A DNA stretch of 64,000 bases, taken from NCBI GenBank assembly GCA_029261195.1, contig JAJDBU010000063.1, forward strand, positions 62,001 to 126,000. Direction: 5' to 3'. The notes below the pieces were generated by a model. It did no database searches and was not told the DNA's origin. It saw only the letters and a list, made by a program, of their open reading frames with translations. This DNA is from Nitrospirota bacterium (lineage in GTDB: Bacteria; Nitrospirota; Nitrospiria; SBBL01; JAADHI01). This document shows, in pieces, positions 50,649-59,298 of the stretch (position 1 is its first letter; every line of letters begins with the position of its first letter). A program made the position numbers and the translations under genes.

Positions 50649-50918
50649 TTAAAATGGAAAATATCTATAAATATCTTTCCGATGAAGAAACCTCACAAAA
50701 ATGACAACATCTTCTTCAAGTTTTAGTCCTATCCTGTAATCGCCTAGACGAATCCTGAAATATTTCCCCTCGCTAGAGAGTTGTTTTGTATCCGTTAAAT
50801 TCTTCAAATTTCTAGCCTTCTCAACTGCCTCAATCACCTCTTTGACCTGATTCAAAAGATTTTTGTTTTTTACCTTTTTGAGGTCTTTTGAGAAACTTTT
50901 CCGAAAATCAAATTTCAT
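50649..50918 (-). CDS. RelE/ParE-superfamily toxin
   Basis: An 89-residue basic toxin: FRKSFSKDLKKVKNKNLLNQVKEVI helices, LKNLTDTKQLSSEGKYFRIRLGDYRIGLKLEEDVVIFVRFLHRKDIYRYFP, a typical RelE fold ending in RKDIYRYFP. RelE-type toxins cleave mRNA on the ribosome; ParE types attack gyrase; the basic residues favour RelE. The ATG overlaps the antitoxin stop by 4 bp. Confidence 0.85.
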   Translation of the reverse strand: MKFDFRKSFSKDLKKVKNKNLLNQVKEVIEAVEKARNLKNLTDTKQLSSEGKYFRIRLGDYRIGLKLEEDVVIFVRFLHRKDIYRYFPF

Positions 50919-51124
50919 GATTTTCCATTAAGTATATTAAAAACCTCAGTTTTACTTATAAATTCAGTAGATTCCCCTTCTTTAATTGCGTTTGTTATCG
51001 CAATATCTTCTATCGCATCTGCGATTATTTTATGGAATAAATCTTTTTTTTGTTCGATTACTTCAGCTAAGGTTTCCTTTAATAATGCTCTCAATTTGTC
51101 TTCATCAATGGATACTTGTGCCAT
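50915..51124 (-). CDS. Antitoxin of RelE-type module
   Basis: A 69-residue acidic, helical protein (MAQVSIDEDKLRALLKETLAEVIEQKKDLF...) ending NILNGKS. It lacks a recognisable N-terminal DNA-binding fold, but its size, order (antitoxin first) and 4-bp overlap with the toxin gene identify it as the cognate antitoxin. SD CTGGAGGTAG before the ATG. Confidence 0.75.
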   Translation of the reverse strand: MAQVSIDEDKLRALLKETLAEVIEQKKDLFHKIIADAIEDIAITNAIKEGESTEFISKTEVFNILNGKS

Positions 51125-51142: not shown

Positions 51143-51550
51143 TTAAAATATAACACCGCGATAGAGTTTCAAAGGGGCCATCCCTGCGATGGTTTGAAAA
51201 TGCTGATCTCTCGTATAGAGCTGTACATCGTTTTCAATAGAAAACTGTGCAATGAGCAGATCAACCGTGCCAAGGGTCGCACCTTTTCGCGCTAGGTGAT
51301 ATCCCAACAAACCCGCTTCACGAAAGGTTTTTTCGCATGGAATCAACCGATGAATCGTACTGAAAAGGACATCCAAAATCGACAGCTCTTTCCGTGTTTT
51401 TGCCCCGCGAATGAGTTCAAGCGCCACGATATCGGCATAGCAGATCCGGCCATTTCTCAAGAGGCTGGAAATTTCATCAGTGAGGGGCGTCTTCGGGGTG
51501 CGGAAGTAGTCGATCCAGATCGATGTGTCGATCAAGATCCTATCGCGCAT
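51143..51550 (-). CDS. vapC: VapC-type PIN-domain toxin
   Basis: A 135-residue PIN ribonuclease. The acidic catalytic residues Asp8 (LIDTSIWIDYF), Glu45 (ALELIRG) and Asp97 (TVDLLIAQF) are all present. VapC toxins cut tRNA or rRNA. It overlaps the antitoxin gene by 11 bp and ends 18 bp before the RelE-type module. Confidence 0.88.
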   Translation of the reverse strand: MRDRILIDTSIWIDYFRTPKTPLTDEISSLLRNGRICYADIVALELIRGAKTRKELSILDVLFSTIHRLIPCEKTFREAGLLGYHLARKGATLGTVDLLIAQFSIENDVQLYTRDQHFQTIAGMAPLKLYRGVIF

Positions 51551-51734
51551 GACGCTCCTTCTCCCAATGATCGGAAAATTCTAGAGATCCCGCCTCTGAA
51601 ATAATCCATTCGAGTCGCCTCTGATGGATAAAGGCCTCTAATGCAAGCTTAACTGCTTCCGTTTTTGTACGACTCTTTGATAGCTTCATGGCCTCTAAAA
51701 TCAACGAACTTGAGATGTCTATTGTTGTCTTCAT
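51540..51734 (-). CDS. vapB: VapB-type antitoxin
   Basis: A 64-residue protein with the VapB family pattern (MKTTIDISSSLILEAMKLSKSRTKTEAVKLALEAFI, a ribbon-helix-helix-like DNA-binding part) and an acidic toxin-binding tail (SEAGSLEFSDHWEKE). The start ATG at 51734 has AGGAG five bases upstream; the longer frame extends into the promoter region and is rejected. Confidence 0.83.
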   Translation of the reverse strand: MKTTIDISSSLILEAMKLSKSRTKTEAVKLALEAFIHQRRLEWIISEAGSLEFSDHWEKERHAR

Positions 51735-51754
51735 AGCACTCCTATAATCATAGT

Positions 51755-51773
51755 AATAACATGTATAATAACA
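51755..51773. promoter_or_regulatory. Direct repeats upstream of vapB
   Basis: AATAACA occurs at 51755-51761 and 51767-51773, a 12-bp period, with the palindrome ACATGT between. Immediately upstream of vapB this may be the operator used by the VapBC complex, overlapping an AT-rich promoter (TATTAT on the minus strand). Confidence 0.35.
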
Positions 51774-51830
51774 GAGATATGAGACGGATACCATGTCAAT
51801 AAAATGCGGCATCGCCTTGTATTTGACCGC

Positions 51831-56604: not shown

Positions 56605-56633
56605 TTGACCCCTTTTTATTGAGACGGTATAAT
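56605..56633 (+). promoter_or_regulatory. Near-consensus promoter of the HsdR-like gene
   Basis: TTGACC (56605-56610), 17-bp spacer, TATAAT (56628-56633): close to a perfect sigma70 promoter, only about 20 bp from the trp promoter and pointing the other way. Start near 56640, about 70 nt before the gene. Confidence 0.65.
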
Positions 56634-56707: not shown

Positions 56708-57838
56708 TTGAATGACATGACGACATCGGACGAGAACGTACAAAAAAAAATTGACAACATGCTGTACGATGCAGGGTGGTGCGTGCAGCTGTTTTCAGGG
56801 TCAAATCCAGCACCAGTCTCCAGACTTGCGATTCGAGGCTTTCCCTTGGCGCGTTCTTATGGATCGATAGATTATTTGCTTTTTATTGACGGAAAAGCCA
56901 TTGCTTTGATCGAAGCCATAGATAAAGGGGTTCCGCTGTGCGGCATTCCTGTGCAGTCCGAAAAATATAGCCGAGGGCTTCCCTTTAGTCTTCGTCTCTA
57001 TACTCGGCCCCTTCCTTTTCTTTACCAGACTAATGGAAGCGAAATCTGCTTTACGAATGCCTTCGACCCGGAACCACTACCCCGCATCCTTCATGGCCTT
57101 CACCGGCCTGAAACCCTGAAAGCATGGATTGAAGACGGGGTTGTGGGAGAAACACCCCGAGACATGGCTGCAGCCTACTTTCCAGAATATCGCAGGCGCG
57201 GCAGAACATTTCACGAACGGGTTTTAATCAACATGCCGGATCTTGTGACGAGAGGTCTTTCCAGCGTAGAAATCAGAGCAGTTCAGACACTGGAAGACGG
57301 GCTTAAAAACAATAAACGACGTATTCTGGTGACTTTGGCCCTAGGCCCGGAACGTCGCACCGCAATGTACCTTTTTATTGAGCGCCTGCTTCGCTTCGTT
57401 GATGCCAGGCGTGTTTTGATCCTGCTTGATGAGGGAAAAGACATTAATGCTCCGATGAATGCTTTTCAACACAATATTTCTTCTGTTGATGACCGCCCGT
57501 TTTCAGAGGTTTTTCACATACAAAGCTTGAACAAAGAAAGCCCCGAAGAAAACCCGATTGATCGAGAGTCCCGAGTTTGTGTGGCTACGATCAAAGAGTT
57601 TGATCTTCTGCTATGCGGGAAAGGTTCTATTTCACTTCCAATTGAAACATTTGAAGTCATTGTGCTTGATGAATGTTCTGAGACTGTTTTACACAAACAT
57701 AAAGCAGTTCTAGAATATTTCGATGCCTATCTCATTGGTTTTTCTGAAATGCCAGGCCAAGAAACACGCGATTTTTTTAATAAAAATCTCTCCATGATCA
57801 ATCCGCAAAACGACGGACTCAATGTACTTTCTCCTTGA
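56708..57838 (+). CDS. HsdR-derived protein with degenerate nuclease and ATPase sites
   Basis: 376 residues (TTG at 56708; ATG at 56717 is an equally possible start). The layout follows the N-terminal half of type I restriction HsdR subunits: a PD-(D/E)xK-like domain (SIDYLLFIDGKAIALIEAIDKG, residues 53-74), a linker, then a RecA-1 domain (SSVEIRAVQTLEDGLKNNKRRILV). Key residues differ: EAK of the nuclease is EAI, Walker A GTGKT is LGPERRT (212-218), the DEAH/DECH box is DECS (321-324), and motif III TATP is SEMP (346-349). RecA-2 and the C-terminal part are missing. The frame is clean and a strong promoter precedes it, so it is probably a retained non-catalytic protein. No HsdM or HsdS nearby. 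Function unknown. Confidence 0.72.
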   Translation: MNDMTTSDENVQKKIDNMLYDAGWCVQLFSGSNPAPVSRLAIRGFPLARSYGSIDYLLFIDGKAIALIEAIDKGVPLCGIPVQSEKYSRGLPFSLRLYTRPLPFLYQTNGSEICFTNAFDPEPLPRILHGLHRPETLKAWIEDGVVGETPRDMAAAYFPEYRRRGRTFHERVLINMPDLVTRGLSSVEIRAVQTLEDGLKNNKRRILVTLALGPERRTAMYLFIERLLRFVDARRVLILLDEGKDINAPMNAFQHNISSVDDRPFSEVFHIQSLNKESPEENPIDRESRVCVATIKEFDLLLCGKGSISLPIETFEVIVLDECSETVLHKHKAVLEYFDAYLIGFSEMPGQETRDFFNKNLSMINPQNDGLNVLSP

Positions 57839-57879
57839 ACCTGACTTCCTGTGAACCCTTATATAAAGGCGGTAAATTT

Positions 57880-59298
57880 ATGATTGAAGAGTACGATCTT
57901 ATCATCTTAGGTGGAGGACCGGGAGGGTATGTCGCTGCGATTCGTGGCGCACAGCTCGGCATGAAGGTCGCTGTGGTGGAAAAAGAGGCAATTGGCGGGA
58001 CTTGCTTGCATCACGGCTGTATCCCCTCAAAAGCCATTATACGAAGCGCTGAGGTGCTTTCCCTGATTCAAGGTTCTGAGGCATTCGGTATTAAGGTTGC
58101 TCACATCCAGCCCGACTTTGGCGCTGCGGTGGATCGAAGTCAAAAGGTCCTCTCAAAGCTCCATCGGGGGGTTTTGCATCTAATGAAAAAGGCGCAGATT
58201 CAAATCATCTCAGGTCGAGGAAAATTGCTCGCCGCAGATCAGAGAACACAGCTACATCAGATCGAAGTCAGCGGGTCGGACGGGATAAGGGTGATCAAAG
58301 GAAAGACAATCATTATTGCAACTGGCAGCCGGGTTCGTAGCCTGCCGAATCTTCCCCTTGATGGTTCACGCATCTTCAGCAGTGACGAGGCCTTGCTCAG
58401 GAAAAATTTGCCGAAGTCGATTGTCATTGTCGGTGGCGGAGCAATCGGTGTTGAATTTGCCTACATCTACTCCGTCTATGGGGTCAAGGTGACGATTGTC
58501 GAATGGGCTGCCAGCCTCCTGCCGATGGAAGATGCCGAAGTTTCCAATCTACTCGAACGCTCTTTTAAAAAACGAAAAATCAAGGTCTTGACCGGACAAA
58601 GCATTACATCGTTTTCAGATCAGGAGGGGGTGTTTGATATTGAGCTGGAGGACTCAAGTGGCAAGAAGAGCATCATTTCCTCAGAAGTCATTCTTGTTGC
58701 TGTCGGGCGTGCGCCGAATGTCGAGGACATTGGACTCGAGACCCTGAAGATAGACTGCGATGATCAAACGAAAACGATAAAAGTGGGCGAACAAATGCAG
58801 ACCAACATAGAACGCATTTATGCAATAGGGGATGTAACAAATCGCCCTGCCCTGGCGCATGGCGCAATGGCACAGGGTGTTTATGTAAGCGAGTCCCTGG
58901 CCGGTATTGTTCGGGCGCCTCTTGCGATGAATGCCGTGCCGAGTGCGGTTTACTGCCATCCTCAGGTCGCCTCCGTTGGTCTGACAGAGGACAAAGCGAA
59001 GGCAGCGGGGCATCAGGTGAAAGTCGGGAAATTTCCTTTAAGCGCCAACGGCAAAGCAATTGCTCTGGGAGAGACCGAAGGTTTTGTGAAAATGGTCACC
59101 GACGAAAAAAATAATGAGATTCTCGGTGCCCACATTATTGGAGCGGAAGCGACCGAATTGATCAGTGAATTTGTTCTGGCGCTTACGCTCGAGGCGACTG
59201 CCGCCGAATTAAAACAAACGATTCATCCCCACCCCACTCTCTCCGAAGCGGTGATGGAAGCAGGCGGTGCCATTTTGGGCGAAGCGATTCATTCCTAG
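57880..59298 (+). CDS. lpdA: Dihydrolipoyl dehydrogenase
   Basis: FAD enzyme that reoxidises dihydrolipoamide in pyruvate/2-oxoglutarate dehydrogenase or glycine cleavage. 472 residues: FAD motif LGGGPGGYVAA (10-20), redox pair Cys42 and Cys47 (GGTCLHHGCIPSKA), NAD-binding IVGGGAIGVEFA, second FAD motif YAIGDV, and the active-site base in HPHPTLSEAV. ATG at 57880 is preferred (AAGGCGG upstream; starts at the family-typical position). No E1/E2 genes are adjacent. Confidence 0.95.
   Translation: MIEEYDLIILGGGPGGYVAAIRGAQLGMKVAVVEKEAIGGTCLHHGCIPSKAIIRSAEVLSLIQGSEAFGIKVAHIQPDFGAAVDRSQKVLSKLHRGVLHLMKKAQIQIISGRGKLLAADQRTQLHQIEVSGSDGIRVIKGKTIIIATGSRVRSLPNLPLDGSRIFSSDEALLRKNLPKSIVIVGGGAIGVEFAYIYSVYGVKVTIVEWAASLLPMEDAEVSNLLERSFKKRKIKVLTGQSITSFSDQEGVFDIELEDSSGKKSIISSEVILVAVGRAPNVEDIGLETLKIDCDDQTKTIKVGEQMQTNIERIYAIGDVTNRPALAHGAMAQGVYVSESLAGIVRAPLAMNAVPSAVYCHPQVASVGLTEDKAKAAGHQVKVGKFPLSANGKAIALGETEGFVKMVTDEKNNEILGAHIIGAEATELISEFVLALTLEATAAELKQTIHPHPTLSEAVMEAGGAILGEAIHS

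Follow-up and report, generated by a model that had tools for sequence, protein, structure and literature searches.

The usual view of restriction subunits is that they are either kept for defence or lost. According to a review, the R subunit of type I systems has no activity outside R2M2S (PMC12707154), and the C-terminal region of HsdR has been implicated in the assembly and binding of the methyltransferase (PMC5248579, PMC2878639). In EcoR124I, HsdR (PDB 4be7, 4bec, 7bst) works as a motor and contains two RecA domains. Pseudoenzymes in general keep a conserved fold under selection after catalysis has been lost (PMC5106787), and in these respects they resemble the protein described here; however, our search of the open-licence literature found no pseudoenzyme derived from HsdR.

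The gene in question lies in a 64,000-nucleotide stretch of DNA from a Nitrospirota bacterium (hereafter the window). The closest described system is type I HsdR of the PRK11448 (EcoKI-like) family, and the nearest member is the full-length HsdR of the genome G019 (L023:383-3220), to which the window protein is about 40% identical in the nuclease-like and RecA1 domains and with which it shares the order of segments and the type of linker. Unlike PRK11448-type HsdR, it has neither the second RecA domain (RecA2) nor the helical domain nor adjoining hsdM and hsdS genes, and it has lost Walker A, motif III and the nuclease lysine. The frame at 56708-57838 (+) is open with zero internal stops, as an earlier note on this DNA had stated. 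The TTG at 56708 is merely the start of the longest frame, and the first in-frame ATG, at 56717, gives a protein of 373 aa. The features of the locus are as follows.

56605..56633, + strand: sigma-70-like promoter match, TTGACC-17-TATAAT, 11/12; sites of this kind are about as frequent as expected by chance
56717..57838, + strand, stop codon included: half-HsdR gene, 373 aa, ATG start, recognised by its frame, profiles and orthologues
56717..57100, + strand: PD-(D/E)XK-like nuclease domain (residues 1-128), with D52 and E66 retained and Ile68 at the position of the catalytic Lys
56918..56920, + strand: Ile68 codon at the position of the ExK lysine; the other seven halves have K, Q, Q, Q, D, D or V
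57101..57256, + strand: linker segment, residues 129-180, with invariant RDM, RG, ER and IN
57257..57796, + strand: RecA-like domain 1 (residues 181-360), which has lost its ATPase motifs
57335..57358, + strand: former Walker A, LALGPERR for MATGSGKT (GSGKT to GPERR), by comparison with full-length relatives
57668..57679, + strand: former Walker B/DEAH box, DECS for DECH; D and E kept, H lost
57737..57754, + strand: former motif III, GFSEMP for GLTATP
57797..57835, + strand: C-terminal tail with a conserved G-L-x-V at its end; all halves end just after RecA1

The near-consensus promoter proposed in the earlier note exists as a site, but three such promoter-like sites were found in the stretch against 1.7 expected, close to chance.

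The descent of the protein from HsdR was evident from several searches. The NCBIfam profile PRK11448 matched it with an E-value of 8e-23 over model positions 230-602 of 1123, Pfam ResIII matched at 1.3e-8, and HSDR_N matched at 0.007, short of that Pfam model's cut-off. In a search of the halves against a defence library REase_I was the best and the commonest match, besides a few weak matches of single members. The AlphaFold model, calculated with 25 relatives as input, had a mean pLDDT of 81 and two well-predicted domains, with low pLDDT in residues 144-158, within the linker. Foldseek placed HsdR structures at all of ranks 1-14 (3h1t at 1.5e-11; EcoR124I). The nuclease and RecA1 folds matched those of EcoR124I HsdR and of the Vibrio HsdR fragment 3h1t, whereas the global TM-score was low; the poor global superposition presumably results from a differing or uncertain orientation of the two domains in the model. 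Thus, the HsdR-like order of segments and the absence of the RecA2 half, both inferred earlier from the sequence, were borne out. The protein consists of a PD-(D/E)XK domain and a first RecA domain and stops there, and the second RecA and C-terminal helical domains that belong to HsdR are absent. We searched the window's genome and the genomes of its family for the RecA2/helical half as a matching separate piece and found none, and a gene split with its C-terminal half elsewhere was rejected on this ground.

As the reference for the state of the motifs we used 40 full-length HsdR relatives, which are near-uniform: they retain D, EAK, QxxxY, a Lys-bearing P-loop, DECH and TATP. In the window protein D52, E66 and QxxxY (Q80, Y84) are retained and K68 has become isoleucine (EAK to EAI), so that the nuclease motif is without its catalytic lysine. 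None of the SF2 ATPase motifs examined, Walker A (GPERR), the DEAH box (DECS) and motif III (GFSEMP), has its functional form. The earlier claim that every catalytic motif is changed is therefore nearly right but overstated: the nuclease lysine, the Walker A loop, the DEAH histidine and motif III are gone, but D, E and QxxxY of the nuclease and D and E of Walker B survive in the window protein. The Walker A lysine (residue 213) is replaced by arginine in 7/8 halves and by methionine in G003. In the G003 half this is the sole loss among the motifs checked, and EAK, DECH and TATP are retained there, whereas the seven other halves combine the Walker A arginine with degenerate motifs.

The stand-alone half was found exactly once in each of the 8/8 genomes of the window's family, with lengths of 373-433 aa, and it was absent from the 10 genomes of other families among the 18 genomes of the order that were scanned. 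The orthologues have intact frames at 41-50% identity (41-49% to the window protein), contain no stops, and all end at the same point just after RecA1. The named database records of relatives are Nitrospirota MAGs, one of them labelled Ca. Manganitrophaceae. Across a sample of 396 genomes from the phylum, every other close match that was examined was full-length, cut by a contig end or broken, in a wider scan that relies on conserved peptide patterns and that diverged halves could escape. Candidates in G083, G070, G063, G286 and G329 were rejected as further stand-alone halves because each is situated at the end of a contig. L067 and G316 (L111) were rejected as equivalent dead halves, since they are truncated but keep their motifs; the P-loop of L111 is non-standard yet Lys-bearing. 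The L067 gene (L067:7935-9113), from a Thermoplasmata archaeon MAG, belongs to the same HsdR family and is truncated separately at about the same domain border; it is 392 aa long and has all motifs intact, and the remainder was not recognised downstream. Either the event is unrelated or the break is recent.

In the tree the eight halves form one clade (100/99) nested within Nitrospirota HsdR, its sister (100/93) being a full-length HsdR that comes from a different family in the class, and by this topology the halves have a single origin. The sister gene has hsdS downstream, and no relative was seen to carry a full-length HsdR at the locus of the half. The branches of the halves are long (1.0-1.2), and G003 is basal in the clade. 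Since this basal half keeps most motifs, the truncation and the loss of the Walker lysine preceded the other losses. A viral origin was rejected: the search of IMG/VR found no relatives of the half, and the plasmid and phage matches had at most 31% identity, the annotated ones being named helicase or restriction proteins.

To evaluate selection on the halves, dN/dS was estimated both by NG86 and by codon-model maximum likelihood; eight halves are known, and synonymous sites are near saturation, so the omega values are approximate. For the best-resolved pair (G002/G004) dN was 0.25 and dS 1.18. Over the same codons omega was 0.20 in the halves vs 0.05 in full-length HsdR. The model with omega = 1, in which kappa was held at 1.5, was rejected for the whole half (2dlnL = 649) and for each region (234 for the nuclease, 151 for the linker and 291 for RecA1). 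The frame is thus under purifying selection across a clade that has lost catalytic residues, as expected of an exapted pseudo-enzyme, and the earlier suggestion that the gene is a conserved stand-alone half and not a decaying pseudogene, which was to be judged by orthologues, by dN/dS and by whether close relatives carry a full-length active HsdR at the locus, held on all three counts. A slowly decaying remnant that is functionless at present would account for the lost catalytic sites, the elevated rate and the shifting gene neighbourhood. However, eight of eight frames are intact at near-saturating synonymous divergence, neutrality is rejected and the constraint on the linker is undiminished, and we consider such a remnant very improbable.

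Relaxation of constraint was uneven along the protein. In the nuclease domain omega rose from 0.050 in full-length proteins to 0.200 in the halves (a drop in constraint of about 4-fold) and in RecA1 from 0.023 to 0.196 (about 8-fold). The linker was the sole region in which constraint was not relaxed, with 0.079 in full-length proteins vs 0.090 in the halves, a test based on 40 alignable codons. Pairwise column identity at positions 136-180 was 0.62-0.75 among the halves vs 0.23-0.46 among full-length proteins, while in the former motor strips (Walker, DEAH, motif III) it fell from about 0.8 in full-length proteins to 0.25-0.6 in the halves. These comparisons show, at the level of sequence, a shift of constraint from the active sites towards the linker. 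A linker of this type occurs in the nearest full-length relative as well, so the halves inherited it and have retained it since. We also looked for a gain of basic charge in the halves as a sign of DNA binding and found none; positive charge is not raised, and a gained DNA-binding charge was rejected.

The residues D52, E66, K60, K83 and Y84 are invariant in 8/8 halves, and migration of the active-site lysine is known among PD-(D/E)XK enzymes. The half could on these grounds be a metal-dependent nucleic-acid binder or a weak nuclease in which K60 or K83 replaces the lost lysine. However, the constraint on the nuclease domain is down 4-fold, QxxxY is broken in 6/8 halves, and position 68 is unconstrained among the halves and hydrophobic in two of them, which makes this explanation improbable as an account of the family. 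Still, with D, E and Y invariant, the halves may retain some binding of metal or DNA, or an unusual kind of nuclease activity.

The genomic surroundings of the half, where neighbouring genes were named by reading their sequences and not by profile searches, differ between genera. In G000 the half gene lies between trpF (divergent) and lpd, and in G001 it and a pdhABC-lpd run are divergently oriented; at the latter locus (L022:229-6430), from the same genus as the window, it adjoins pyruvate dehydrogenase genes. In the window (56717-59298) lpd is the sole pyruvate dehydrogenase gene left there, the best PdhB-like matches (about 40%) being on other contigs. The lpd frame (57835-59298, +) opens at a TTG inside the stop codon of the half-HsdR gene, but its likely start is the ATG at 57880, some 40 bases from that gene; co-transcription of the two genes is possible. 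In the other genus the divergent neighbour of the half gene is a 330-aa gene, after which comes a 70-aa gene, and the G003 locus has neither the PDH/lpd nor the 330-aa/70-aa neighbours. A conserved neighbour that would name a pathway was rejected, as none is common across the genera.

At none of the loci read were hsdM or hsdS recognised beside the half, and an adjacent or cognate pair of the kind that accompanies HsdR was not seen there. Descent from HsdR, the presence of HsdS and HsdM matches somewhere in 7/8 genomes of the family, and the fact that a catalytically dead subunit would be a natural inhibitor could suggest a restriction modulator with a dominant-negative effect, which binds type I machinery, resident or incoming (HsdM/HsdS, HsdR or the DNA being translocated), and dampens restriction. 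However, the G005 genome (90% complete) keeps the half, and no HsdS or type I HsdM match was found in it; its one weak N6_Mtase match is housekeeping-like, of a kind also present in other genomes of the family. Moreover, the HsdR of the type I system at C21 in the window's genome falls into a distant subfamily in the tree, and the C-terminal region implicated in methyltransferase binding is missing from the half. As R is inactive outside R2M2S and the region for methyltransferase assembly is absent, a simple restriction role is unlikely; G005 and the missing contact domain make any role in type I restriction less likely as well. We therefore regard the modulator as unlikely, and the regulator of a remote restriction system offered in the earlier note found no support.

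A decoy that soaks up phage anti-restriction proteins or baits phage effectors, and thereby shields other systems, would explain why the HsdR fold is kept and why evolution is fast (branches of 1.0-1.2), and targets of conflict often evolve fast. However, no recognised defence genes were seen beside the half at the loci read, the conserved part is an internal linker and not a known anti-restriction target, and a viral homologue was not found in IMG/VR. With the plasmid and phage matches at 31% identity or less, the association with restriction or defence loci or with mobile elements that marks an anti-restriction or decoy protein was not seen. We consider the decoy quite improbable; the earlier proposal of a decoy or anti-restriction component is likewise unsupported given G005 and the missing C-terminal domain.

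We favour, with a probability of about 0.6, the reading that the half is a lineage-specific pseudo-enzyme exapted from type I HsdR, which would serve in binding or regulation without catalysis, and not in restriction. The domesticated binding factor was the best fitting of the roles offered earlier, but DNA binding in particular lacks the gain in charge. As the distribution and the tree show, in the family's common ancestor an HsdR gene lost the RecA2 and helical domains and became detached from hsdM and hsdS. The Walker A lysine is missing from all copies, and the nuclease lysine, the DEAH box and motif III were lost after G003 branched off. Lacking RecA2 and the P-loop, the protein should be unable to drive DNA translocation, and the missing ExK lysine most probably leaves it unable to cleave DNA. 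Moderate purifying selection would maintain the two folded domains as a scaffold, and the linker, partly disordered in the model and fully constrained, would probably be where a protein or nucleic-acid partner docks. Our best reading is that the former interdomain linker is the key surface of the half. Tentatively, these dead, RecA2-less HsdR halves might form a previously undescribed family that serves as a lineage-specific interaction hub, with the conserved, partly disordered linker as its functional element. Against the pseudo-enzyme reading stand the differing neighbours between genera, the lack of charge gain and the G003 half with most of its motifs.

A motor subunit has here become fixed across a bacterial family after both its motor and its cutter were lost; the sequences record how constraint moved from the active sites to the linker, and a near-intact intermediate (G003) survives. 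If true, the exapted pseudo-enzyme would show cleanly how an enzyme of defence can become a binding protein without catalysis.

Elsewhere in the window, two small adjacent genes at 50649-51124 (-) resemble a RelE/ParE-like toxin and its antitoxin, and a PIN-domain-like (VapC-like) gene follows a small antitoxin-like gene at 51143-51812 (-), both judged by eye; the latter pair sits between histidine kinase and response regulator genes.
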